A DNA stretch of 64,000 nucleotides from Sphingobacterium cavernae. Lineage in GTDB: Bacteria > Bacteroidota > Bacteroidia > Sphingobacteriales > Sphingobacteriaceae. Shown one piece after another: positions 7,816-64,000 of this stretch. Location of the stretch: the NCBI RefSeq assembly GCF_008520265.1, contig NZ_VIQM01000040.1, positions 124,001 to 188,000 of the forward strand, written 5' to 3'. The notes below the pieces were generated by a model, which saw only the letters and a list, made by a program, of their open reading frames with translations, was not told the origin of the DNA and made no database searches. Position numbers and translations under genes: made by a program. Positions within the stretch are counted from its first letter, which is position 1. Each line of letters opens with the position of its first letter.

Positions 7816-8304
7816 CTATTTATTTTTGATAGTTTCGACGATAGCGTCTAATAATTCATTAAGTTGCTGCGGATTAAGAAGGCCATTATGCCTAAAGATT
7901 GGCTGATATTGTTTGTCTAATAACACCCATGATGGGTATGAAATTTTGTTGCTGCCAATCATAACAAAAACCAATTCATGTGTCCCAATGTTGATACCAG
8001 TAGGCTTGTACACGTACTCTTTGTTTTGAAATTTGATTTTGTCTTTGCTTTCAGCATCGAAATCTACAAAATAGAAATGATCAGACTTCTGTTTAAAGTT
8101 CTTATTTCTTTGGATTTGGCGATGTTGCATAGCGCAGTATTGACACCAGTCTGTAGAAAGTAAAACTAAGATAGGTTTAGGCTGTTTAGCCATTAGACTA
8201 TCTATTTGTTCAATTTTAGTTGGTAAAATTTGTGCATGACTTACTTGCCATGCACAAATGAATAGTATAACTATAAGAAACCGAGTTAAACATCTTGTTC
8301 CCAT
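7816..8304 (-). CDS. Exported thioredoxin-fold protein
   Basis: A 162-residue protein with a signal peptide (to about SHAQ, residue 25) and a thioredoxin-like active site WCQYC (Cys54, Cys57) in LLSTDWCQYCAMQHRQI. A second segment, VDFDAESKDKIKFQNKEYVY, and the PSWVLLDKQYQPIFRHNG strand complete a short thioredoxin fold. The expected compartment is the periplasm, where it would reduce or exchange disulfides. It starts 17 bases after the stop of the TonB receptor gene and is read in the same direction, so the two are almost surely cotranscribed. That makes the receptor's CxxC plug motif or a copper/heme-handling partner a plausible client. Confidence 0.85.
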   Translation of the reverse strand: MGTRCLTRFLIVILFICAWQVSHAQILPTKIEQIDSLMAKQPKPILVLLSTDWCQYCAMQHRQIQRNKNFKQKSDHFYFVDFDAESKDKIKFQNKEYVYKPTGINIGTHELVFVMIGSNKISYPSWVLLDKQYQPIFRHNGLLNPQQLNELLDAIVETIKNK

Positions 8305-8321
8305 AATTTGTGGTTTTTTTC

Positions 8322-10562
8322 TTAAAATAAATTATACCGCACGCCCAAGAAACCACGGATACCTTGGTTCGGACCGTAAACATAACTTGGATCGAACGGC
8401 AATAAATTAGGATCATCAATTCTTTCGAACGGATCATGAGCTCTAGATATAATTTCGATTCCACCTTTGGTAGGTGTCCAATTCAATAGATTTTTGACAC
8501 CACCAAATATTTCTAAACCATTATTAAAATGTTTGGTCAACTGAATATTTTGAATACTCCAAGCTTTTGATTTATCTGGACGAGGATCTTGAATTCCGCC
8601 TACCACACTCAAAGTTGGTAAGCGCATTGCGCCAATCACATTTCCAGTATAGTCTATACTTAAGTTAGCACGTTTGATCTTGTAACCAATTGTCCACGTT
8701 CCCATTGCTTTCTCAGTCAACATTTGCCATTGTTTGATATTATTTTCTACACTATAAACATCCATTACTGTGGCGCCTATCATCGCTTTTAGACCGCTCG
8801 TGTGTGCCCAATCTAAGTTTAGGGATAATCCTTTGGATACGGCATGACCATCTAGATTTTCATAGATGATTTGATTGACATTAGTTTCGTAGTCCGGAAT
8901 AATTTTGTTGTCAAAATACGTGTAAAATGCACTCGCATCTAGTGCAAATACAGATCCGCCATCCATGTAGAACTTCTTGATATAATTAAGGTTTCCATTC
9001 CAAGATGTCTCTGGTTTAAGGTCGCCAACGAATATCACATCACGTGCCCCAGTCAGCGCAGCATGGTCTTCGGTAAAAATGTTTGCTACACGATAGCCGT
9101 TACCCACACCTAGACGAAGAACTTGTGTATTGTCGCGTGAATTCCATTTATAGTTAATGCGAGGTGATAAAATAGTACCGTGTAATGAATTATAATCCAG
9201 ACGTGCACCCAATAAAAGTTTATGCTGTCCATGTAATGTGATTTCATCTTGTACAAAGATACCTGGCAAATGCGTGTTCGAAGCCTTGGCTGTCGCTGCT
9301 GTATTGTCATTATAATAGGTATAACGATACGCTAGCCCCGTCAAAATATCGTGATTTTGGATTTCTTTGCGCCAAGTCAATTGACCGAAAGCAATTTTTT
9401 GGTCTGCCAAATATTTTGTTTCACCGTACACACTGTTTTGGTCATGACCATTAACACTAAAAGTGAATGTCAAATTTTCTGTTGTTGGCAAATCATACGC
9501 GCCCATCATTTCCCAACGTTTGGTGTAGATGCTTTCGCCGTACACCTCATTTCCACCGCGGTATTGTCTACTCCAATTCATTTCTCCACCCCAACGGTCT
9601 TCGTAGACATAACGACCCGCAAGTGTGAACACCTTATTGTCTTTACGAGAAAAGTTCCATTTATTAAATACCGAGAATCGTTGTTGCATAGTTACGTCCG
9701 TGAAATTATCGCCATTCTTGTCAATAGGATTATTGTAGTTAAAGTAGTTGGCACCGATTAATGACTGCGCTGTACCTACATTCACTTTACCTCCTAAATC
9801 CAAATTGTATTCTTGCCAAGAAGTACCCATTGTTTCCAAATTGAAAGTAGGTGCTGAACTTGGGCTTTTTGTGATGATATTGATTAATCCGCCGACAGCT
9901 TCACTACCGTAAAGCGTCGAAGCTGGACCTTTCACAATTTCTACTCTTTCGATTAAGGCTTGAGGAATACCGTTCAACCCGTATACGGTAGAAAGTCCTG
10001 ATACAATTGGCAATCCATCAATCAAGACCATCGTATATGGCCCTTCTAGGCCGTTGATATGAATGTCTCCCGTATTACATACACTACAGTTGATTTGTGG
10101 GCGAACGCCATTTATATTTTGCAACGATTCGAAAATCGTAGGCGCAGGATTGGCTTGGAAAAACTTAGAAGTAAAAACCTCAACTGGAATAGGGCTATCT
10201 AATTTTGAAACTTGTTTTAATGTGCCGGAGACAACAACCTCCTCCAAATTACGGTTGTCATTTTCTAAAAGTATTTCAATTCCATTTTGATAATCTGCTG
10301 CCGCAATATCTTTCTTGATCATCAAAAAACCGACTGCACGTGCTGCTAACTTTGTTTTTCCTGTTGGTATGTGTAGTGAAAATTGTCCCGCATTATCAGT
10401 TGAAATAGACACTTTAGTTCCGTCTACCGAAACAGTTGCATTTACGATTGGATTTCCATCTGAATCCTTAATAGTTCCTTTTAATACGTTTTGTGCATGA
10501 AGAATAAAAGCGAAGCTAACTAAAAGTACAGTCAGCATACCACTTTTCATATATTGTGACAT
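8322..10562 (-). CDS. TonB-dependent outer-membrane receptor, probably for a metal or metal complex
   Basis: The start chosen is ATG at 10562, because MSQYMKSGMLTVLLVSFAFILHAQ is a proper signal peptide; the frame stays open 30 codons further upstream. Domains in the 746-residue product: a carboxypeptidase-regulatory-like Ig domain (about 25-100, LKGTIKDSDGNPIVNATV), a TonB plug (about 120-230, with VLIDGLPIVSG and RVEIVKGPASTLYGSEAVGG), and a 22-strand-type barrel ending in GVRYNLF. The plug contains a CSVC pair (Cys159, Cys162) before GDIHINGL, unusual in sugar-uptake SusC proteins and reminiscent of metal/heme/cobalamin-type receptors. The small His-rich gene upstream and the thioredoxin gene downstream support a redox-active metal, but the substrate is not established. 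Confidence 0.9.
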   Translation of the reverse strand: MSQYMKSGMLTVLLVSFAFILHAQNVLKGTIKDSDGNPIVNATVSVDGTKVSISTDNAGQFSLHIPTGKTKLAARAVGFLMIKKDIAAADYQNGIEILLENDNRNLEEVVVSGTLKQVSKLDSPIPVEVFTSKFFQANPAPTIFESLQNINGVRPQINCSVCNTGDIHINGLEGPYTMVLIDGLPIVSGLSTVYGLNGIPQALIERVEIVKGPASTLYGSEAVGGLINIITKSPSSAPTFNLETMGTSWQEYNLDLGGKVNVGTAQSLIGANYFNYNNPIDKNGDNFTDVTMQQRFSVFNKWNFSRKDNKVFTLAGRYVYEDRWGGEMNWSRQYRGGNEVYGESIYTKRWEMMGAYDLPTTENLTFTFSVNGHDQNSVYGETKYLADQKIAFGQLTWRKEIQNHDILTGLAYRYTYYNDNTAATAKASNTHLPGIFVQDEITLHGQHKLLLGARLDYNSLHGTILSPRINYKWNSRDNTQVLRLGVGNGYRVANIFTEDHAALTGARDVIFVGDLKPETSWNGNLNYIKKFYMDGGSVFALDASAFYTYFDNKIIPDYETNVNQIIYENLDGHAVSKGLSLNLDWAHTSGLKAMIGATVMDVYSVENNIKQWQMLTEKAMGTWTIGYKIKRANLSIDYTGNVIGAMRLPTLSVVGGIQDPRPDKSKAWSIQNIQLTKHFNNGLEIFGGVKNLLNWTPTKGGIEIISRAHDPFERIDDPNLLPFDPSYVYGPNQGIRGFLGVRYNLF

Positions 10563-10743
10563 AAATAATTTCTTGTTTAAGATTAGTAAAATGTTCGGCA
10601 ATTGGATACCATTTACGATGCAATTAGAACTACACATTAGGTGTAATTCCAAAGCAGAAGAATAGCATCAATTTAATTATTGATTTTAATCAAAAAGGTC
10701 AAATCACAAACCATAATTATAGCTTGCAACACGTTAAGAATCA

Positions 10744-46480: not shown

Positions 46481-47773
46481 TTATCTCTTATCTAAATCGA
46501 TATAAACGCTATCTACATCACCTGTGTATACTTGACGCGGACGACCGATAGGCTCTTTGTTGTCACGCATTTCTTTCCATTGTGCGATCCATCCTGGAAG
46601 ACGACCTAATGCAAATAATACAGTAAACATTTCTGAGTTAAAACCTAAGGCGCGATAGATAATACCCGAGTAAAAGTCAACATTTGGATATAATTTTCTG
46701 TCAATGAAATATTGATCTTCTAAAGCTGCTTTTTCAAGTCCTTTTGCGATATCCAATACAGGATCATTGATACCTAATTTCTCCAATACATCATCTGCTG
46801 CTTTCTTGATGATTTTAGCACGAGGATCGAAGTTTTTGTATACGCGGTGACCGAATCCCATCAAACGGAAAGGATCGTTTTTGTCTTTCGCTTTGTCTAA
46901 ATATTTTTTTACATCGCCACCATCGTTTTTGATGTCTTCCAACATCTCAATTACTGCTTGGTTAGCTCCACCGTGAAGTGGTCCCCATAAAGCATTGATA
47001 CCTGCCGAAATAGAAGCATATAAATTCGCATTCGAAGAACCTACGATACGTACTGTCGATGTAGAACAGTTTTGCTCGTGGTCTGCGTGTAAGATTAATA
47101 AAACGCGCATAGCGTCAAGTACTGCATCATCAAAGATTTTATCGCAGTTCACTTCACCAAAGATCATGTTCATGAAGTTGTCAATATATCCTAAATCTTT
47201 TTTAGGATATACAACTGGATGACCTAATGATTTCTTTTGAATCCAAGAAACGATTGTTGGCATTTTACCCAACAAGTTTACGATCGTTTCGTATTCTTCT
47301 TCTTCGTTTTGATTTGGATTTAATGATTCTGGATAGAATGCCGATAAAGCACCTACTAAACACGAAAGTTGACCCATAGGGTGGGATTTCGATGGAAAAC
47401 CAGCGAAGAAATTTTTCATGTCTTCGTGTACCAACATTTTCCCTTTGATATCAGATCTGAATTTTTCTAAAACTTTTCTAGATGGTAATTCGCCGTATAT
47501 CAATAAGTAAGCAACTTCTAAGAAAGTGGATTTTTCTGCTAATTCTTCAATTTTATATCCACGGTATTTAAGAATACCTTTTTCGCCATCCAAAAATGTA
47601 ATTGCACTTTTAGTTGCACCTGTATTTTTGAATCCTGGGTCTAAAGTAATATATCCTGATTGGTCTCTTAATTTTGAAATATCAATAGCTTTCTCGTTCT
47701 CCGTTCCTGTGATTACAGACAACTCGATCGTCTTGCCATTTAAAGTAATAGATGCTGTTTCCGACATAATCAA
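46481..47773 (-). CDS. gltA: Citrate synthase
   Basis: Condenses acetyl-CoA and oxaloacetate in the first TCA step. The 430-residue type II (hexameric-like) enzyme has ILKYRGYKIEELAEKSTFLEVAYLL, ILHADHEQNCSTSTVRIVGSS with the first catalytic His, GALWGPLHGGANQAV with the second, and FGHRVYKNFDPRAKI with catalytic His and substrate Arg. The late VDFYSGIIYRALGF block carries a further conserved Asp. A second ATG two codons down (47767) is equally likely as start. TACTTTTG on the minus strand at 47790-47797 fits the promoter. Confidence 0.97.
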   Translation of the reverse strand: MIMSETASITLNGKTIELSVITGTENEKAIDISKLRDQSGYITLDPGFKNTGATKSAITFLDGEKGILKYRGYKIEELAEKSTFLEVAYLLIYGELPSRKVLEKFRSDIKGKMLVHEDMKNFFAGFPSKSHPMGQLSCLVGALSAFYPESLNPNQNEEEEYETIVNLLGKMPTIVSWIQKKSLGHPVVYPKKDLGYIDNFMNMIFGEVNCDKIFDDAVLDAMRVLLILHADHEQNCSTSTVRIVGSSNANLYASISAGINALWGPLHGGANQAVIEMLEDIKNDGGDVKKYLDKAKDKNDPFRLMGFGHRVYKNFDPRAKIIKKAADDVLEKLGINDPVLDIAKGLEKAALEDQYFIDRKLYPNVDFYSGIIYRALGFNSEMFTVLFALGRLPGWIAQWKEMRDNKEPIGRPRQVYTGDVDSVYIDLDKR

Positions 47774-47797: not shown

Positions 47798-47939
47798 TAA
47801 AATTCAACAAGAAAAACTAAACTTAAAACAAGTTTAAATGACATTTATCAGTCATAAATCGTAAACTAAATAATTCTTTAACTATCTGATTATCTATTTC
47901 CGTCAAAAAGTGTTAAATATTTTACGAAAAATTTTTTAT

Positions 47940-47958
47940 TCTACGAAATTTTCGTAGA
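47940..47958. promoter_or_regulatory. BlaI-type operator upstream of the repressor gene
   Basis: A perfect 19-base dyad TCTACGAAA-T-TTTCGTAGA. A related half-site TTTACGAAAA lies about 19 bases upstream (47921-47930). The dyad's right arm overlaps a near -7 box (TAGATTAG, 47955-47962), so repressor binding would block transcription. BlaI-family proteins bind this kind of TACxxA/TxxGTA dyad. Confidence 0.75.
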
Positions 47959-47987
47959 TTAGTGTTGTGAAATATAATCATGACGAT

Positions 47988-48359
47988 ATGAACTTAGAGA
48001 AATTAACGATACAAGAAGAAGAGGCAATGTTATCCATTTGGCAATTGAATGGTGGTTTTGTGAAAGAAATATTAGATAATATGAAGCCAGAAGAGCAAGT
48101 TCCTTACACTACACTTGCTTCTACAGTCAAAAACTTAGAACGTAAAGGCTATGTAAAGGCTGTTAAATACGCAAATGCCAAACGTTATGAGCCACTTATT
48201 TCATTGGAGGATTACCGCGCTAAATTTATGAATTCATTCGTGGGCGATTATTTCAAAAACTCGTACAAAGAAATGGTTTCATTCTTTATCAAGGAAGAGA
48301 AGCTTAGTGAAAGTGAATTGAAAGAAATTCTCAATATGATCAAGGACAATAAATCTTAA
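47988..48359 (+). CDS. BlaI/MecI-family transcriptional repressor
   Basis: Start chosen: ATG at 47988 ([20 protein letters not shown]). A GTG seven codons earlier (47967) would fall near the predicted transcription start, so it is less likely. The 123-residue winged-helix repressor has [33 protein letters not shown] as the recognition and wing region. A C-terminal dimerisation helix pair follows. Members are inactivated by cleavage by an M56 sensor protease, here encoded immediately downstream (4 bases). Likely autoregulated through the dyad at 47940-47958. Confidence 0.92.
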
Positions 48360-48363
48360 AGAG

Positions 48364-50598
48364 ATGGAAAATCTACTAACCTACATACTTCAAGTAAACC
48401 TTCTTATATCGTTAATCTTTTTGGGTTATTATTTCTTATTGAAGGGTTTGACTTTTTACACGTTGAATAGGGTGTACTTTGTCGTAGGGAGTCTGTATGC
48501 ATTTGCGTACCCGTTTATCGATATTAAATCTTGGTTTACGAGAAACGAAGTTATGCTAACTGTTCTACCACCAGAATTAATTACAACATTCGATATGCCA
48601 GCTACTAGTACTAGTCAAATTACATTGTTGGATGTCATTATCACGGTTGTAGCCATCTTGGCAGTGCTATTTGTATTTAAATTGCTGATGCAGCTATTTA
48701 GTTTGTTGCGAATACATTTGCATTCCAAAAATTCTTCGTGGCAATCCTACATCTTTCGCAATGTAGTTTTTCCAATTGTTCCTTTTTCATTTTTCAATAA
48801 AATATATATACACAAAGAGCAACATCAGGAAACTGAATTGCAAGATATTTTCGCGCACGAGATTGTACATGTGAGAGGCCATCACACGGTAGATATTTTG
48901 TTGTTCGAAATCATATTGGTGGTTTGTTGGTACAATCCCTTCGTATGGTTAATGCGCAAAGCTGTACGTCAAAATTTAGAATTCCTGACCGATCAACAGG
49001 TGCTGAATAAGGGCGTGGACAAGCAAACCTATCAATATTCTCTATTGCATGTCACGCGACAAGGTGTTGCGGTGGGCATGAGTAACCATTTTAATTTTAA
49101 AACCCTAAAAAAGCGCATTATGATGATGAACAAAAAGCGCTCTTCCAAATTGGAATTGAGCAAGTATGCTTTCTTACTACCAGTTTTTCTGATCGCGGGA
49201 ATGTCTTTTACAGTAAGTAAAGCCGAAAATAATATTGAGAAAATAGTTGAGAAATCACAACAAACTACTGTAATATCTGAACCACTAAAAGTAAAAATGC
49301 AAGGTGAAGTAGGTGAATTGTTGAAAAATACGATTGGTACGGATATTATATCCGTCGACACTAGTCAACAAATTTATAATGCGGATTATCCGTTAGCTCC
49401 TTCAACTTTTAACAAAGAAGAATTGAGAGGTAAGAATCTCTTTTTCAAAATTGATGAGAAGTTAGTGTCATTAGATGAATTTTATGATTTCTCTAGATCC
49501 GACATTTATGCAGTAGATATTTATACAGATAAAGAGTATATACGGAAGAAGATAGGCAAAGAAAACGCTGAAGGATATTTTGTGATTACTTCGCGTGATT
49601 GGATTGCGAAAAATTATCCGGTAGAGCAGTTGCAAAAGATGGTGAACGAGGGAAACGAACGTGGCCTTACTTTTACAGTAGAAGAAAATGGTAAAAAACG
49701 TGTAATAAAAGGTCAATCTGCAGATTTTGAAGCTTTGAAAAAGTTAGCTCCATTCTATGATTACGAATCTTCAAAGAATAGGAAAAATGCTCAAACTAAT
49801 GAGAAGTTTGAATTGACTTTTATGAAATCAGATACTTCTAGTCCAATAAAGCTAATTTCCAAAGATAGCCTAGGTAAGGATATTATATCGTCAAGTAAAA
49901 GTGGCGCATCTGTTATTCTTTCAAATCCAGATATAAAACCTCTTTATGTAGTGGATGGTAAAGTAAGCACAGGCGAAATTGTAAGATCTTTAAGTCCCGA
50001 TAACATTAAATCTATTTCGGTATTAAAAGATAAAAGTGCCACAGCGATTTATGGTGATAAAGGAAAGGATGGGGTTGTGGTGATAAATACTAAGGATTAC
50101 GACCAAAAGAAAGTTAATGTTAAAATCAAGGAAGCAATAACTAGAGAAATTGAAAATGAACGTCAGAAAAATGAAGTTTTAGTAGTAGGCTATAAACAGG
50201 AACCTCAATCTAAAATAGAGCTAAAAGGAGTCATTAATGGGATTTCAATAGATGATGCTTCTTTAATTACTAAAGAAAAGCGTGTAAATTTTAGTTCTTT
50301 TCAAACGAATAAGCCTTTGATCATTGTTGATGAAAAGGAAATGGAGAGTAATTTTGATTTGAATTCTTTAAATGTAAATAATATTCAGTCAATTTCTGTG
50401 TTAAAGGATCAAAGTGCAACAGCCTTATATGGTGATAAAGGAAAAAATGGAGTTATTTCCATTCAAACAAAAGGTAATGATCAGAAAGAGGTAGTAGTTA
50501 CAGGTTTCAAAATCGATAAATCACATACAGATTCAAGCAAAACTATGTCAAATGACAAGGTGAAAGAAGTTGTAGTTACAGGGCACAAAAAGAAATAA
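48364..50598 (+). CDS. M56 (BlaR1-like) membrane metallopeptidase with two TonB-plug-like repeats
   Basis: A 744-residue protein. The N-terminal membrane part has helices around 5-25, 35-50, 85-110 and 180-195. It holds the zinc motif HEIVH (165-169) in [19 protein letters not shown], with the downstream glutamate region [25 protein letters not shown] further helix near 265-280 passes out of the membrane. The C-terminal sensor region holds two related copies of the TonB-receptor plug motif: PLYVVDGK...[21 protein letters not shown] (about 527-578) and PLIIVDEKE...[21 protein letters not shown] (about 651-702). No penicillin-binding domain is seen, so the signal is probably not a beta-lactam. 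It forms an operon with the repressor. Confidence 0.88.
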
Positions 50599-50681: not shown

Positions 50682-51329
50682 CTATTTATAAGCGAATACT
50701 TCACCAAGATCTTCGTTACTTGTAAAAGTACAGCCTAAGTCAGTTAATTCACCTGTACCAATATTGATAACCATTCCATGAACCGCTAAATCATCACGAT
50801 CTTTCCAAGCATTTTGTACGATAGAAGTTGTACATAGGTTGAAAACTTGCTCCTGAACATTCAATTCAATAAGACGATTTACTTTATCCTCGTGATTTTC
50901 GATAGCATCAATTTCAGCAGCATGCAAGCGGTAAACATCTTTGATATGGCACAACCAGTTGTCAATTACACCAAATTGTTGACGGCTCAAAGAAGCAGCT
51001 ACACCGCCACAACCGTAGTGACCTGCAATGATTACGTGTTTCACTTTCAATACATTAACCGCATAATCCAATACAGATAACATACTCATGTCAGAGTGGA
51101 TTACCATGTTTGCAATATTACGGTGTACAAATACTTCACCTGGTTTTTTACCTGTGATTTCATTTGCCGGAACTCTACTATCCGCACAGCCAATCCACAA
51201 TACTTCTGGACTTTGACCTTTTGCTAATTGTTGAAATCTGCCTGATTCGTCTTGTTTTACGAAATCAACCCACTCTTTGTTCCCTTGTAATATTTTTTTA
51301 AATCCTAATTCTAATTCTTTGTTACCCAT
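50682..51329 (-). CDS. Beta-carbonic anhydrase (first)
   Basis: Interconverts carbon dioxide and bicarbonate. The 215-residue protein has the complete beta-class zinc site: Cys48 with Asp50/Arg52 in IGCADSRVPANEI, and His104 and Cys107 in AGHYGCGGVAAS. The EVFVHRNIANMV and LDYAVNVLKVKHVI segments are standard. No signal peptide, so cytosolic. It lies downstream of the second carbonic anhydrase gene and SulP, same strand, with a 240-base gap holding a hairpin. Confidence 0.95.
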   Translation of the reverse strand: MGNKELELGFKKILQGNKEWVDFVKQDESGRFQQLAKGQSPEVLWIGCADSRVPANEITGKKPGEVFVHRNIANMVIHSDMSMLSVLDYAVNVLKVKHVIIAGHYGCGGVAASLSRQQFGVIDNWLCHIKDVYRLHAAEIDAIENHEDKVNRLIELNVQEQVFNLCTTSIVQNAWKDRDDLAVHGMVINIGTGELTDLGCTFTSNEDLGEVFAYK

Positions 51330-51465
51330 TTTAATAATTATTAGGTTTTTTTTGTTTGAATATACGAATTACCGTATTTATTATTAATAATTCGAATCTT
51401 CGATATGATAATTTGTGTTTTTGGAATTTTATTTACAAGGCATTGTAAAAAGGTATATTAGAACA

Positions 51466-51502
51466 ATAAAGCAGTAGCAAAATTAAATTACTACTGCTTT
51501 AT
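51466..51502 (-). terminator. Hairpin between the two carbonic anhydrase genes
   Basis: A 12-bp stem ATAAAGCAGTAG / CTACTGCTTTAT with a 13-base loop, 68 bases past the stop of the 51570-52205 gene. The T-run is short, so termination may be partial. Confidence 0.65.
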
Positions 51503-51569
51503 GAGGTCTTTTACTTCTCCAGTTATTTTTTTCGCAGAAAGAATAACCTAATGAAAAGTGTGATCGAAA

Positions 51570-52205
51570 TTATATCCAGCTTACCACACCAGTTTCTACA
51601 TTATAGTTCGCACCTATTATTTTGATCTTTCCATCTTTTTCCATTTTATTCAAAGTGTTACTTTGATTGCGGATATCTTCCATTGTTTGTTTTACGTTTT
51701 GAACGTTTAATCTTTCCAACAAATCCTCATTTTTAGAAGAACGCTCTTCTCCTTCCTCAAGTATATTCTCAATGATAGGGTTGAAATGACCAACTAAATG
51801 GCTAAGATTATTCATCTCCGTCTGCTGGATTGCAGCCGCATCTAAACCTCCTTTTAATGCACCACATTTCGAGTGTCCTAAAACAACAATTAATTTAGAG
51901 CCAGCGACGTTACAAGCAAATTCCATAGAACCCAAAATATCTTGATTTACAAAATTTCCAGCAATACGAATACTGAAAATATCTCCTAATCCCTGATCAA
52001 ATATTAATTCTGCAGATGTACGACTATCTATACAGCTTAAAATAACCGCAAATGGCCACTGTCCTTCTCTCGTATCATTTACTTGAGATAATAAGTCTCT
52101 ATTAGCTTTTAAGTTTTGAACAAATCTATCGTTACCAATTTTTAATATTTCAAATGCTTTATCTGGAGTAATTGTCGCTTGAGTTTCTAAAGTATGTGCC
52201 TTCAT
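51570..52205 (-). CDS. Beta-carbonic anhydrase (second)
   Basis: A 211-residue beta-class carbonic anhydrase with Cys58/Asp60/Arg62 in LSCIDSRTSAEL and His111/Cys114 in LGHSKCGALKGG. FSIRIAGNFVNQDILGSMEFACN differs clearly from the first enzyme, so the two are not a recent duplicate. It starts 34 bases after the SulP gene stop on the same strand. Supplying or consuming bicarbonate at a transporter is the obvious role. Cytosolic, no signal peptide. Confidence 0.95.
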   Translation of the reverse strand: MKAHTLETQATITPDKAFEILKIGNDRFVQNLKANRDLLSQVNDTREGQWPFAVILSCIDSRTSAELIFDQGLGDIFSIRIAGNFVNQDILGSMEFACNVAGSKLIVVLGHSKCGALKGGLDAAAIQQTEMNNLSHLVGHFNPIIENILEEGEERSSKNEDLLERLNVQNVKQTMEDIRNQSNTLNKMEKDGKIKIIGANYNVETGVVSWI

Positions 52206-52239
52206 TATATATTTTTAATTTGTTATTGCTTGATAAATA

Positions 52240-53808
52240 TTATACTATTTTCTGTAGTTTGTTTTGTTTGGTGCGTGCTGTCCTGCGTTTGTATGTCACG
52301 TCATTCAGCTCGATTTCAAGACCTTTGCTCATGGCATTCTGTTCAAAATCTTTTAACACTTCCAATACATCTTTATCAATAAATTTACTGTTCTCGCCAT
52401 TGATGATTACCTTATCAACGGATTTTGGTAAGCTATATAGCTTTTGCTGGATTGGTACTTTATTTAAGAAAGAAACCTCTTCTGCCAAAGTCAATACCGC
52501 AATTTGCTCTTCGGTGATTTCAAATTTATAGGCATTTTGCATATTTGCACGCAAGATGTAAAATGTAGCTACTAGGATACCAATACCTACACCCATTAAT
52601 AAATCTGTAAATACAATCGCTACTACAGTAGTTGCAAATGGTATAAATTGATCTAATCCTTTGCGAAACATTTGTTGGAATAAAGCAGGTTTAGCTAGTT
52701 TGAATCCTGTGTGCAAAAGAATGGCAGCCAAACATGCTAATGGAATTAGATTGATGATTGCTGGAATTGCCATCAATGCAACTAATAACCAGATACCATG
52801 GAAAATAGCGGATTGACGTGTACGACCACCAGAGTTTACATTGGCTGATGAACGAACAATAACGGATGTCATTGGTAGACCACCTAGAAAACCAGAAGTC
52901 ATATTACCTACACCTTGAGCAACTAATTCTCTATTTGTTGGCGAATTTCTTTTGAATGGATCCAACTTATCCACAGCTTCTAAGCTTAATAATGTCTCCA
53001 AACTTGCAATAATTGCCAAAGTGAAGGCAACTATCCAAACTTCTTTATTCGCAATTTGCGTGAAGTCTGGGAAAACAAATAACTGTGTAAACTGTGCTAT
53101 AGATGATACTTCCGGTATGGAAACATAATGCGATGGAATTAACGCCATTTCGGTACCTTGAAAAGCAAAGCCTAATCCTACCCCCAACAATACCACCACA
53201 AGTGGTGCCGGCATTTTGTTCAGGTATTTAATAGATGGCCAAAATATAAGTATTGCCAACGATAAGAAACAAATGATTGTAGCTCCCCAATTCACACTGG
53301 AAAAGATCGTATCCGTATATGCAGCAATGCCACCTCCGTTATCCAATTCAAACGCGTGCGCTTCTGTCATTCCAAATGCCAAAGGCAATTGTTTTAAAAT
53401 TATCGTAATACCAATTGCTGCAAGCATTCCTAAGATTACAGATGATGGAAAATAATTTCCAATCATACCTGCTTTGATAATTCCCAGAATTAATTGAAGC
53501 ACACCAGCAATAACGACTGCTAATAAGAAAGTTTCGTAAGCGCCTAATTTCTGAATTGCTCCAAAAACAATAACTGTTAATCCCGCAGCAGGTCCAGATA
53601 CGCTCAACGGAGAACCGGAGATAGCACCTACCACTATTCCTCCAATAACACCTGTTAATACTCCAGCGAATAATGGTGCTCCTGATGCCATAGCAATACC
53701 TAAACACAAGGGTAAAGCGACTAAGAATACGACTATTGACGCTGGTAAATCATATTTTAAGTCCCTTTTCGATAATTTAAGAAAAGCGGACACACGAGTT
53801 CCAAACAT
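52240..53808 (-). CDS. SulP/SLC26-family anion transporter with STAS domain, likely bicarbonate
   Basis: A 522-residue transporter. The N-terminal core (KRDLKYDLPASIVVFLVALPLCLGIAMASGAP) and the TGFLGGLPMTSVIVRSSANVNSGGRTR block are SulP signatures; about 12 helices extend to about residue 420. The C-terminal STAS domain (about 430-520) holds VDKVIINGENSKFIDKDVLEVLKDFEQ. Members move sulfate, bicarbonate or other anions. The adjacent carbonic anhydrases make bicarbonate the best guess, with sulfate not excluded. It heads a SulP-carbonic anhydrase unit. Confidence 0.92.
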   Translation of the reverse strand: MFGTRVSAFLKLSKRDLKYDLPASIVVFLVALPLCLGIAMASGAPLFAGVLTGVIGGIVVGAISGSPLSVSGPAAGLTVIVFGAIQKLGAYETFLLAVVIAGVLQLILGIIKAGMIGNYFPSSVILGMLAAIGITIILKQLPLAFGMTEAHAFELDNGGGIAAYTDTIFSSVNWGATIICFLSLAILIFWPSIKYLNKMPAPLVVVLLGVGLGFAFQGTEMALIPSHYVSIPEVSSIAQFTQLFVFPDFTQIANKEVWIVAFTLAIIASLETLLSLEAVDKLDPFKRNSPTNRELVAQGVGNMTSGFLGGLPMTSVIVRSSANVNSGGRTRQSAIFHGIWLLVALMAIPAIINLIPLACLAAILLHTGFKLAKPALFQQMFRKGLDQFIPFATTVVAIVFTDLLMGVGIGILVATFYILRANMQNAYKFEITEEQIAVLTLAEEVSFLNKVPIQQKLYSLPKSVDKVIINGENSKFIDKDVLEVLKDFEQNAMSKGLEIELNDVTYKRRTARTKQNKLQKIV

Positions 53809-60833: not shown

Positions 60834-61724
60834 TTAGTAAATTAATTGTTCTTGAATTTGCCTTTTTGCCGTATTACTGTCACGTCCACGTTGAAACATT
60901 CTGCCAAAATTTTTGACAAAATCATCTAATGTCAATGCATTGGCTTTTTTGTCTTTCCAATCTGTAGGTGTAGTATCATTTGTATAATCCACTTTTGTTG
61001 CCCAATATTGAATATGCATTTCCGGTATAGCCAATCCCATAATCATGCCCGGAAGACCACTACTTAAGGCTGGTCCGGCTGAAACGGGAATCTGATCCGT
61101 ATAAAATGCGACTAAATAAAGGGAATCAGGTGTAGAACCATTTACTCTTCGGCATTCGAAACCTGCAATTTCTCGGTATTCGTTGGTGAATCGCCATGTA
61201 ATATTGTTAAGGCTGTCAGATATGATGTACTTTTCGTCGATTTCCAATTGCACATTACTGGTGCCATCTTTTAGATTTTGATGAAAAACTTTAGAATTGT
61301 TATTCATTCTACCTCGAGGCATATTTCCACCGACACCAGCATTCATCCTAAAATTTCCACCGCCCATATTTCCACCTCTACCGCCACCTGCGCCAGCTCT
61401 CACAACAGCTCTATTGCCCGAATTATTTGGTGTTGCAGTTTCTTCGGCCGAAGGGTCTACTGTCAATACGGTGCTATTTTCATCAAAATATAACATCAAC
61501 TTTTGTGTGGTCGATTCGGGCATATTATCCAAATTAAATCCGCCTCCACCACCAAATCGCATCATCATATTTGGATCCGCATTTTGAGTCATGCTGCGTA
61601 CTCTTGCTTTGGTGAACGTGACTTTGTCAAATGAAATTTTACCTCTTGTACCGAAATAGGCGTACTGTGCATCACTCTGCCCCCAGCAGATTAATAATAT
61701 AAATGTTAGTATTAGCTTATTCAT
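60834..61724 (-). CDS. GLPGLI family protein
   Basis: A 296-residue exported protein (signal peptide to about SDAQ, residue 19). The family motif is seen as GLPGMIMGLAIPEM (about 230). The upstream pattern EIDEKYIISDSLNNITWRFTNEYREIAGFECRRV is also typical. A low-complexity insert of Gly, Asn, Met and Arg (about 110-150, GAGGGRGGNMGGGNFRMN) is longer than usual. Function unknown; GLPGLI proteins are commonly found with a TonB-type beta-barrel, as here, since the start overlaps the barrel stop by 8 bases. Confidence 0.85.
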   Translation of the reverse strand: MNKLILTFILLICWGQSDAQYAYFGTRGKISFDKVTFTKARVRSMTQNADPNMMMRFGGGGGFNLDNMPESTTQKLMLYFDENSTVLTVDPSAEETATPNNSGNRAVVRAGAGGGRGGNMGGGNFRMNAGVGGNMPRGRMNNNSKVFHQNLKDGTSNVQLEIDEKYIISDSLNNITWRFTNEYREIAGFECRRVNGSTPDSLYLVAFYTDQIPVSAGPALSSGLPGMIMGLAIPEMHIQYWATKVDYTNDTTPTDWKDKKANALTLDDFVKNFGRMFQRGRDSNTAKRQIQEQLIY

Positions 61725-64000
61725 TGTTTTTCTTTCCTAAATTTTTGTTAAAATCCCATTTTAGACCAAATAAAAAGTATCGTGTCAACATCAATTGTGT
61801 TGATTCTGAGAATTGTGTATCCGAGACATTTCTATTTGTTGTATTGAATGTTTTGAATATGTCAAATGCTTTTACGCTAGCTACTAAACTTTGATTTTTT
61901 AATAGCTTCTTGCTCATTTCCAGGTTTGTGTAGAATTGATGAATTGATTTGTTATAAAATTTGGTTGGTCCTTCTACACTATAATTTATGTGTGTGGTAA
62001 TATTAAACTGTTTTGGTAAAAAGTAGCGTAAATAAGTTGATCCGCCAGTACTTAGATTTGTATAATTCAAATCACGTTGTAGGCTGTTACGTTGATTATT
62101 TACATTCACACGCCAGTTAAAATCATAGTCCAAACCTTTTGAATCTTGTTCATTAAAACTAAATCCTGTAAAAACAGATGCGTTTTGCGTATTGTTTAGT
62201 TCATACTGCCCCTGATCGTTTCGTGAACCATCTTCCGAATAGCGTGTATATGTAAATCCATTTCCATAATTCGCTCCTGAAAATATATTCAATTGCACCT
62301 TGCGGTCAAATATAGGTCTGCCATGGTTTGCATTTAAGTTTGCGTTCCAACTGGATCTACCCATTACATTGACATAGGTGCTTGTCGTCAATGTGTCAGT
62401 TACAGTTCGTTTGTTTACGATTGGATTGTTTTTAAAACTTATTGCAGAATTTAAATTCCAGCTTGTCCCTTTTAAAAGACTCATAGTATTGTAATTCAAC
62501 CTGAAATTATTGTTCACAGCTCGCTGCAAATCTGGATTTCCTAATTGTAAAAAGATAGGTGAAGTTTGTGGTTGCAATGGTTGCAATTGTCCAAATGAAG
62601 GTACATCAAAACTATTTTGGTAAGATGCAGATAGATTTTTTCGATTAGAAATTCTATAATTACCATTAATATTTAAATCATTATCCCAAAAACTTCTGCT
62701 AAGATCAATATCTCGGTAAGAGTCATTTATCCCCTGATCTCTATAGTTCGTTCGATTTGAAAGAGAGAAATTTAATTTTTCAGTATTATAATTCAAATTT
62801 GCTACGACGCTTTGATTGCTAGACTCATTTATTAGATTTTGTGAATATTGTTCGTCAATTGTTTGATTCCCACCATCATTATTAAATGCATCAATTTTAT
62901 TCTTGTTTTTATTGTACCCAAAATTATAGCCTATAGAGTAATACATTTGTTGGGTAATGCGATCAGAAAACTGTAATTGTGTAGAAAAATTATTACCATC
63001 AGATTCATTTATCCTTGTCTGATCGACGATTGTTTCTCTATTGTCTTTGTGTAAATAAGTGCGTTGAAAGACTTCACTTTCTTGGTTGGACTGATTCATG
63101 TCATTACTCACGTGAATATTAATCGATCTTCCATTGGCGTTGAGTCGTTTGCGATAATTTATTCGGAAATCGTTGGAAAGATTGTCTCCGAAATTGCGGT
63201 TAGAACTCCTAAAGTCACGTACAGAGTCGGTCGCATTGTTAAGCATAAAACTCTCCGAGCTACTAAAGCCTGTACTTTGATTTTGTCGTGCATTTAAATG
63301 CACTTCCATATTGGACGTCGAATCTATACGCCATCTAAATTGTGATCTAAAGTTATGTCCTTGGTTAGCATTCTCATTTTTGGAGCTGCTGTTTGTCTCT
63401 TGGATTTGATCATTAGAAACAATCTCTTTATTGTAGCTATCACGTTCGTTGCGGTTACTCGCATCATTAAAATTATAATTGGCGTTCACGTTCAGCTTTT
63501 TGCTAAAGAACTGATTTTCATAATTAGCTCCAATAGATGAGTTTTTTGGTTCACCTGTTATTTGGCTATTCATGCGTAATCCACCTTCACGCCCTCCCGC
63601 TGATGCGCCCATATTGTTGGTGTTAGCGGTGATTCCAATGCGTTCTGTTCGGTTAAACTTTGCAGCAAAGAGATTGGCTGTATATAATTCTTCCGTTCCG
63701 AGGTTAGCTTCGATGTTGCCGAATACACCAACGCGTGCTTCTTCTTTGAGCACTACATTCAACGTCTGAATACGCTGCCCATCATCGATGCCCGTTAACT
63801 CAGCTTGTTCAGACTTACGTTCATACACTTGAACTTTGTCAACCGCATCAGCGCGGACATTACGAATAGCGATTTTAGGATCATAACCAAAAAATTCCTC
63901 TCCATCAATCAATACCTTAGCAACTGATTTTCCGTGAGCGGTGATTGCACCATCACCAGAAACTGTAAGCCCCGGAAGCCTTCTCAATAGATCTTCTAAT
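61717..64000 (-). CDS. TonB-dependent receptor-type outer-membrane barrel, partial (cut by window end)
   Basis: The frame is open past 64000; a TTG near 63987 is internal, since the text before it (EDLLRRLPGL) is the standard plug motif. The visible 761 codons hold the plug (VSGDGAITAHGKSVAKVLIDGEEFFG, RNVRADAVDKVQVYERKSEQAELTGIDDGQ) and a long Asn/Ser-rich barrel of the OMP_b-brl_3 type. The latter has many N-x-N repeats and ends TRYFLFGLKWDFNKNLGKKNNE. The C-terminal residue is not aromatic, but TRYFLFGLKWDF just before it is. It is the upstream partner of the GLPGLI gene. Substrate unknown. Confidence 0.85.
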   Translation of the reverse strand, partial: LEDLLRRLPGLTVSGDGAITAHGKSVAKVLIDGEEFFGYDPKIAIRNVRADAVDKVQVYERKSEQAELTGIDDGQRIQTLNVVLKEEARVGVFGNIEANLGTEELYTANLFAAKFNRTERIGITANTNNMGASAGGREGGLRMNSQITGEPKNSSIGANYENQFFSKKLNVNANYNFNDASNRNERDSYNKEIVSNDQIQETNSSSKNENANQGHNFRSQFRWRIDSTSNMEVHLNARQNQSTGFSSSESFMLNNATDSVRDFRSSNRNFGDNLSNDFRINYRKRLNANGRSINIHVSNDMNQSNQESEVFQRTYLHKDNRETIVDQTRINESDGNNFSTQLQFSDRITQQMYYSIGYNFGYNKNKNKIDAFNNDGGNQTIDEQYSQNLINESSNQSVVANLNYNTEKLNFSLSNRTNYRDQGINDSYRDIDLSRSFWDNDLNINGNYRISNRKNLSASYQNSFDVPSFGQLQPLQPQTSPIFLQLGNPDLQRAVNNNFRLNYNTMSLLKGTSWNLNSAISFKNNPIVNKRTVTDTLTTSTYVNVMGRSSWNANLNANHGRPIFDRKVQLNIFSGANYGNGFTYTRYSEDGSRNDQGQYELNNTQNASVFTGFSFNEQDSKGLDYDFNWRVNVNNQRNSLQRDLNYTNLSTGGSTYLRYFLPKQFNITTHINYSVEGPTKFYNKSIHQFYTNLEMSKKLLKNQSLVASVKAFDIFKTFNTTNRNVSDTQFSESTQLMLTRYFLFGLKWDFNKNLGKKNNE

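Follow-up and report, generated by a model that had tools for sequence, protein, structure and literature searches.

In a 64,000-nucleotide (nt) stretch of Sphingobacterium cavernae DNA (assembly GCF_008520265.1, contig NZ_VIQM01000040.1, positions 124,001-188,000, forward strand; hereafter the window, with 1-based coordinates), we found a BlaI/MecI-type repressor gene directly 5' of an open reading frame (ORF), both on the + strand, for a 744-amino-acid (aa) M56 sensor protease that carries repeated modules resembling half of the plug of SusC/RagA receptors. We interpret the pair as a BlaR1/BlaI-type circuit whose sensor would have been rebuilt from TonB-receptor parts and which would control envelope genes, a reading to which we assign a probability of about 0.45. 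Its domain make-up, folds, conservation, operator and genomic targets are supported by computation. M56/BlaI pairs are known beta-lactam switches, Bacteroidota depend heavily on TonB-dependent import and carry several M56 genes per genome, and we know of no definition so far of the signals and targets of these M56 genes. For one Bacteroidota M56/BlaI pair the operator is now defined and an envelope regulon predicted, and the pair's signal is therefore directly testable by reporter. Below, the own genome is the S. cavernae assembly, and L-numbers are loci or stretches read from it or from other genomes.

An M56 protease with half-plug modules

The N-terminal part of the protein matches Peptidase_M56 (E 2.8e-15, 56.7 bits vs. 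a Pfam cut-off of 31), and the protease looks intact because H165, E166, H169 and E206 (HExxH and a downstream Glu) are invariant across 46 aligned M56 proteins. With an AlphaFold2 model of the whole protein (46 sequences; mean predicted local distance difference test score (pLDDT) 66.6; predicted template modelling score 0.41), a Foldseek search of the PDB ranked BlaR1 first and returned its chains alone at E <=0.001, plug matches appearing at E 0.03 and above with high probability; S. aureus BlaR1 superposed on the model both as 8exs (Z 17.3, 227 residues, root-mean-square deviation (rmsd) 5.1 Å, model residues 4-250) and as 8exr (Z 14.6, 207 residues, rmsd 2.9 Å; both by VIA). Pfam found no penicillin-binding or transpeptidase domain in the protein at E up to 1, and the NCBIfam model blaR1_generic was matched weakly (39 bits vs. 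a cut-off of 400). Since Pfam shows a plug and no penicillin-binding sensor domain, the protein is, judged by its domain content, an M56 sensor protease and not a beta-lactam BlaR1.

An earlier note on this DNA had claimed that two SusC-plug-like repeats replace the penicillin-binding sensor, and our searches bear this out. The protein matches Plug (PF07715) at E 1.8e-11 (45 bits vs. a gathering score of 23.9) and the SusC/RagA signature TIGR04057 in two stretches at E 8.8e-25, above the NCBIfam cut-off; these E-values place the similarity far beyond chance. The full SusC/RagA transporter model TIGR04056 stays below threshold (115 bits vs. 368), its best stretch being confined to the plug part, and a sequence search with aa 523-705 returned SusC and RagA homologs (E 2e-9 to 4e-9). 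The best Plug alignment spans profile positions 33-107 of 107, and hence only the C-terminal half of a plug is present, in modules of ~53 residues; the protein has no beta-barrel, and its chain stops 40 residues past module 3. A profile iterated from the two clear repeats recovered both (aa 526-577 and 651-703) and added a degenerate third copy at aa 363-410. This module 1, the TonB-box-like motifs described below (aa 603, 708 and 734) and the repressor operator are features beyond the earlier note.

The folds agree with the sequence matches. All three modules share much the same strand and helix order in the model, mostly at pLDDT >80, and are separated by linkers (466-522 and 597-648) and followed by a tail (705-744) at pLDDT <50. 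Structural alignment likewise finds the two clear repeats plug-like: the RagA plug 6sml_B aligns with a module over 52 columns (rmsd 1.4 Å, 50% identity, probability 1.00, E 0.03; Foldseek, PDB), and VIA matches aa 514-578 to SusC 6z9a (Z 5.3) and aa 649-703 to YncD (Z 5.1). Module 1, folded alone, had weak plug matches among its best (Cir, probability 0.85; RagA, probability 0.80; 2.1 Å over 52 columns; Foldseek). Because it gave no Foldseek match at E <=0.001 and its plug matches in VIA were weak (6zlt at Z 4.5, another at 4.3), we grade it as degenerate and plug-like rather than a proven plug. The residues that follow it (aa 411-464) are modelled as a helix with a strand pair, weakly like a domain of the secretin HofQ (Z 3.7), and are missing from relatives such as L007.

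We compared 195 modules of M56 proteins, some loci being counted twice, with 28 of the 30 half-plugs of own-genome receptors (two short ones were dropped). A core motif is common to both groups. The loop reads YG-S-R-A/G-A-NG in receptors vs. YG-D/E-K-G-K-NG in the M56 proteins, and charged residues make up 0.17 of the receptor half-plugs vs. 0.28 of the M56 modules. From this loop and this charge we read the M56 modules as probably adapted to solvent, not to a barrel lumen. The earlier note had further proposed that the repeats may mimic the receptor plug and bind TonB or a partner. Taken literally, such a mimic would enter or cap barrels of the SusC type from the inner-membrane side and thereby report receptor state. 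Their likeness to SusC/RagA plugs in sequence and fold speaks for such mimicry, yet each module is only half a plug, it would be tethered to an inner-membrane protein, the receptor S-R-A-A is replaced by D/E-K-G-K as charged residues rise from 17% to 28%, and the arm would need to extend into barrels of the outer membrane that hold plugs of their own. Given the half plug, the tether and the charged loop, insertion into a receptor barrel is disfavoured, and we consider it very improbable.

TonB-system domains across the protease family

Among 83 M56 proteins, drawn from 79 related loci and the own genome with the window copy included, 67 bear one to four half-plugs (0-4 overall) joined by divergent linkers, so that the repeats are conserved in relatives; at least two (L053 and L056) of the 16 that lack a half-plug end at a contig edge. 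A BlaI gene lies within ~200 nt upstream in 79 of the 83 and ~660 nt upstream in a further two (L035 and L037). The M56 protein is 97% identical in S. bovisgrunnientis L005, the closest named relative, whose amino-acid-changing vs. silent differences from the window gene (1:2 in module 1, 1:3 in module 2 and 1:0 in module 3) are too few for firm ratios; per-module counts are small, and synonymous divergence is saturated past this relative. In S. faecale (L042:4001-6122) the M56-plug gene occupies two overlapping frames with a half-plug match in each, through either a real frameshift or a sequencing error.

Across a sample of the phylum, 94 of 296 genomes held a relative at E <=1e-10 (with up to three candidates scored per genome), and 20 of the 31 M56 ORFs from this search, the window's included, had a half-plug. 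Adding further stretches picked from the search list and the own genome gave 72 distinct M56 proteins: 20 with half-plugs only, 12 with half-plugs and TonB_C, 8 with TonB_C only and 32 with neither, fractions that are not phylum-wide rates because the set was picked for likeness to the window protein and from listed places. Pfam placed TonB_C on 20 of them, Plug on 16 (its Plug model being less sensitive to half-plugs than the repeat profile), CarbopepD_reg_2 on 4 and CarboxypepD_reg on 3, and a BlaI gene sits directly upstream of 61 of the 63 M56 genes in this set with upstream DNA available. Other domains in the set were Por_Secre_tail on three proteins and Amidase_3 and DUF2807 on one each; L060:4001-5581 joins M56, TonB_C and a half-plug in a single protein (by eye), and L194:242-3928 encodes a 1228-aa M56 protein with three half-plugs and three TonB_C domains. 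The own genome has three M56 genes, each adjoined by a BlaI gene: the window copy, L001, in which neither plug nor TonB_C was found, and L003, which has TonB C-terminal repeats. The own genome gives 8 TonB_C matches and 71 Plug matches, and of the latter only that of the window protein coincides with an M56 place.

TonB-box-like motifs were scored with a matrix of 27 candidate boxes from own-genome receptors, three of the 30 receptors giving none and two boxes being replaced by hand with the same receptor's other candidate. With the repeats masked, we counted 18 sites in 16 of the 67 plug-bearing sensors (shuffle mean 0.055, maximum 1), against none in the 67 N-terminal parts and one in one of the 16 non-plug sensors; the rows are not independent because the window protein and its near-identical relative are both counted.

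These distributions bear on a more generic account, in which the half-plug is no more than a small, stable fold put to repeated use by Bacteroidota for binding or spacing; the sensor would then bind a small ligand or a polymer of the envelope and be unconnected with TonB. The variable copy number and divergent linkers would suit it, as would the 32 of 72 sensors with neither domain and a plug in an 883-aa own-genome protein (L126) that by eye is not a receptor. It accords less well with the concentration of TonB-box-like motifs on plug-bearing sensors, with the presence of TonB_C and CarboxypepD_reg on the same protease family and with the CarboxypepD_reg outer-membrane-type proteins among the predicted targets, and we regard it as somewhat unlikely. 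Our conjecture is a partner from the TonB or receptor system, on the grounds that the protease family repeatedly carries TonB_C, plug and CarboxypepD_reg domains and that TonB-box-like motifs concentrate on plug-bearing sensors.

The operator and its predicted targets

The dyad TACGA-N5-TCGTA occurs around the blaI start, between 200 nt upstream of the called ORF and 30 nt inside it, in 72 of 78 loci, window included, and the pattern has two sites in the window vs. a shuffle expectation of 0.04. The second, at 47279 inside the citrate synthase gene gltA, recurs in the 97%-identical relative; we rejected it as an operator and treat it as chance because it matches the wider operator profile poorly (score -0.2, minus strand near 47301). 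The other blaI genes of the own genome lack the dyad, L001 having TACGA-N6-TCGTA copies and L003 a different sequence. A decaying gene fusion without present function would explain the variable sensor lengths and linkers and the split frame of the S. faecale ORF, but it sits badly with protease residues invariant in 46 proteins, with modules that differ at few amino acids from one close relative to another and with an operator retained at 72 of 78 loci; we find it scarcely credible.

The strict operator gave no sign of a wide regulon in the own genome (4 places with N5 spacers vs. 11 for a reversed-pattern control), where a single site has the AT spacer. Scanning 40 Sphingobacterium genomes (200 Mb) for the AT-spacer dyad yielded 52 sites, which are close to chance in number and non-random in position. 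Thirty-one of them lie 38-82 nt upstream of an ortholog of the window blaI (31 of the 36 orthologs). Another 11, where chance would give 0.0006, precede genes of the GLPGLI family and cover 11 of the 15 close orthologs found in the 40 genomes. We read all of the remaining 10. Two precede ~895-aa CarboxypepD_reg outer-membrane-type proteins (L272 and L273, at ~200 nt in L272), two precede ~400-aa CarboxypepD_reg exported proteins (L267 and L271), two are at the start of thioredoxin-like exported proteins (L269 and L270, by eye; mutual BLAST E 8.6e-11; the longest ORF in L270 starts before the operator site), two fall inside genes (L228 and L268), and two precede copies of one uncharacterised ORF (MNNLDAIYDF...) in L224 (G331 C1:1070000-1077000), which are ~4.3 kb apart and each begin 44 nt after the dyad's first base.

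The GLPGLI link came from reading 16 second-site regions, of which 10 were GLPGLI and two were the blaI site itself. Among 30 GLPGLI upstream regions (29 distinct, L266 repeating the own genome), 19 hold a perfect dyad and 23 a dyad with at most one mismatch (22 of the 29 distinct), vs. shuffle means of 0.01 and 0.215. All 23 close orthologs keep it within two mismatches, and none of the six remote paralogs keeps it within one. In the own genome, two tandem copies of the dyad, 19 nt apart, stand just before the ATG of the GLPGLI gene (L235:4840-5730, minus strand), whose promoter lies at about G000 C27:20242-20275, and the sole intergenic site among 12 one-mismatch sites precedes GLPGLI. The protein encoded by the adjoining gene (894 aa) carries CarboxypepD_reg at its N-terminus, as SusC-like receptors do, and has a plug-like region recognised by eye only; this outer-membrane protein had no sequence relative among solved structures and no NCBIfam match at E up to 1. 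Beside the putatively operator-controlled gene is a further GLPGLI copy that stop codons interrupt (G000 C27:20301-21080; L231, L235), and beyond this copy lie transposase-like ORFs (L235:6551-7774 and 7861-8364, by eye).

The ~400-aa CarboxypepD_reg class keeps the dyad (at most one mismatch) in 6 of 9 cases (shuffle mean 0.06). Under the same dyad, homologous proteins are encoded near blaI in a Mucilaginibacter metagenome-assembled genome (L058, where each of three genes has a dyad in front of it) and in Chitinophaga skermanii (L068; directly before blaI). Because the predicted BlaI operator precedes the operon of GLPGLI and outer-membrane protein and CarboxypepD_reg proteins, a link of the M56/BlaI pair to outer-membrane function is supported on the output side. 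The earlier note had suggested that the sensor links outer-membrane transport to repressor cleavage; this idea is partly supported, through the predicted targets, and a plug mimic inside the SusC barrel is disfavoured. For the binding of TonB or another partner that the note envisaged, the signs are indirect: the enrichment of TonB-box-like motifs and the TonB_C domains of sibling sensors.

A further alternative is modelled on DegS, which senses unfolded porins: the half-plugs may pair with other plugs or exchange strands with them, in this way recognise unassembled or mis-inserted TonB-dependent receptors, and so bring about the induction of envelope proteins. Most operator sites away from blaI do precede exported or outer-membrane-type proteins, the modules retain a plug fold yet have a solvent-type loop, and the 71 plug-domain matches of the own genome imply that receptors would be an abundant signal. 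Against this, no known envelope-stress chaperone or protease was recognised among the targets read, and TonB_C on sibling sensors better fits recognition of TonB boxes; we consider assembly stress unlikely as the signal.

Features of the blaI-M56 locus (Table 1) are accompanied by gltA (46481-47773, minus strand), which is divergent from blaI and is found there at 51 of 79 loci. We considered a functional role for gltA and set it aside; because all 51 loci are from Sphingobacterium and close kin, the arrangement looks like genus synteny. Elsewhere in the window, all on the minus strand, are a further GLPGLI-type gene (Porph_ging, E 2.1e-8) adjoining one for an OMP_b-brl_3 outer-membrane protein (60834-63987), near which the window pattern scan gave no strict operator site, two carbonic anhydrase genes (Pro_CA) in a row with a sulfate-permease-family gene, possibly a bicarbonate unit (50682-53808), and a TonB-dependent receptor with CarboxypepD_reg, Plug and barrel domains (8322-10652).

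Table 1. Coordinates of the blaI-M56 locus in the window (PSSM, position-specific scoring matrix)
Feature	Position (nt)	Strand	Remarks
Upstream half-site TACGA	47923..47927		19 nt before operator, the tandem-operator spacing of relatives (e.g. L059); putative function
Predicted BlaI operator TACGAAATTTTCGTA	47942..47956		dyad TACGA-N5-TCGTA; 31 nt before likely blaI ATG 47988
BlaI/MecI-type repressor gene (blaI)	47967..48359	+	listed start GTG 47967; likely start ATG 47988; Penicillinase_R PF03965, E 3.3e-24
M56 sensor protease with half-plug repeats	48364..50598	+	ATG start, 744-aa ORF
Membrane helices and M56 zinc protease part (aa 1-285)	48364..49218	+	residue invariance and BlaR1 fold match
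Half-plug module 1, degenerate (aa 358-410)	49435..49593	+	profile match 363-410; AlphaFold2 pLDDT block means 83-92
Half-plug module 2 (aa 525-578)	49936..50097	+	RagA 6sm3, E 3.6e-9; SusC 6z9a, Z 5.3
TonB-box-like motif NEVLVVGY (aa 603-610), disordered linker	50170..50193	+	PSSM 15.9 vs. threshold 13.5; pLDDT <50 at 597-648
Half-plug module 3 (aa 650-704)	50311..50475	+	SusC homolog 8aa4, E 2e-9; YncD, Z 5.1
TonB-box-like motif KEVVVTGF (aa 708-715), disordered tail	50485..50508	+	PSSM 16.5; pLDDT <50 at 705-744
Weaker TonB-box-like motif KEVVVTGH (aa 734-741)	50563..50586	+	PSSM 11.9, under threshold 13.5

A proposed circuit and its known counterparts

We propose that, at rest, BlaI would occupy TACGA-N5-TCGTA operators and repress its own blaI-M56 operon together with an envelope regulon, mainly the GLPGLI protein and the ~890-aa CarboxypepD_reg outer-membrane protein and, in other species, the ~400-aa CarboxypepD_reg exported proteins. 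The M56 protein would sit in the inner membrane with its zinc site toward BlaI, and would extend into the periplasm an arm of ~460 residues consisting of three half-plug modules and disordered linkers with TonB-box-like motifs. A change in the arm's binding partner, most likely a component of the TonB or TonB-dependent-receptor system, would activate the protease, which would then cut BlaI and allow the envelope genes to be expressed. Membrane topology, BlaI cleavage and repression are inferred by homology, the latter two from S. aureus BlaR1/BlaI, and that the half-plug arm senses a partner from the TonB or receptor system is our conjecture. If the sensor does read the TonB system, import capacity would have a route to control outer-membrane composition.

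It has not escaped us that several observations weigh against this BlaR1/BlaI-type circuit built from TonB-receptor parts. On the sensor side, 51 of the 67 plug-bearing sensors have no TonB-box-like motif over threshold, and common descent from a receptor plug may explain the motifs without function; the 32 of 72 proteins with neither plug nor TonB_C mean that a tie to TonB is no general property of M56 sensors; and plug and TonB_C show no clear association within M56 proteins (TonB_C on 12 of 32 plug-bearing proteins and 8 of 40 others, raw counts). On the output side, the AT-spacer total of 52 compares with 45 for a reversed-pattern control and 8 of the 40 genomes have no site, the dyads that precede GLPGLI in the own genome are imperfect, just 23 of 60 genus genomes have a close GLPGLI ortholog, and the ~400-aa CarboxypepD_reg class occurs in 9 of the 60 and is absent from the own genome.

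A more far-reaching possibility is that we are dealing with a Bacteroidota class of inner-membrane sensor proteases that read the TonB system directly, through TonB boxes and half-plugs or, in siblings, TonB C-terminal domains. Whether or not TonB engages or pulls on the arm would then switch BlaI cleavage by M56 and reset a regulon of TonB-receptor-like outer-membrane proteins. We hold this to be doubtful; were it true, the energy coupling of outer-membrane import would feed back on gene expression apart from the sigma/anti-sigma route.

A literature search, with subscription journals mostly outside its reach, returned nothing on plug-bearing M56 proteins or on the TACGA-N5-TCGTA operator and its regulon; in PMC12578637 "M56" is a reagent number. 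Plug domains on M56 proteins are likely already noted in domain databases, because Pfam detects them.

Compared with the BlaR1/MecR1 and BlaI/MecI systems of S. aureus (cryo-electron microscopy structures 8exp-8ext), the pair described here has the same membrane M56 zinc protease with HExxH (fold Z 17.3), the same pairing with a Penicillinase_R repressor and a dyad just before the repressor's own gene, whereas its sensor has half-plugs and no beta-lactam-binding domain and its predicted regulon lies in the envelope, no beta-lactamase having been recognised among the targets read. The modules share with the SusC/RagA plug (6sli, 6sml and 6z9a) the sequence and fold of its C-terminal half, with TonB-box-like EVVVTG motifs nearby as a putative further likeness, but are repeated half plugs with a solvent-type loop and no barrel, joined to a membrane protease. 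TonB proteins with MecR1-like N-termini have reportedly been noted earlier. The M56-TonB_C fusions of Bacteroidota (e.g. own-genome L003) have in common with the window protein the protease family, the BlaI partner and a TonB-system domain in the sensor, and differ in carrying the TonB side instead of the receptor side, although 12 of the 72 M56 proteins have both, and, for L003, in a blaI without TACGA-N5-TCGTA. Finally, FecR/PupR-type anti-sigma factors are inner-membrane signalling proteins with an STN-like periplasmic domain; they resemble the window protein in joining inner-membrane signalling to a periplasmic domain related to TonB receptors, but that domain is STN and not a plug, and they act on an extracytoplasmic function sigma factor and not on a BlaI repressor.

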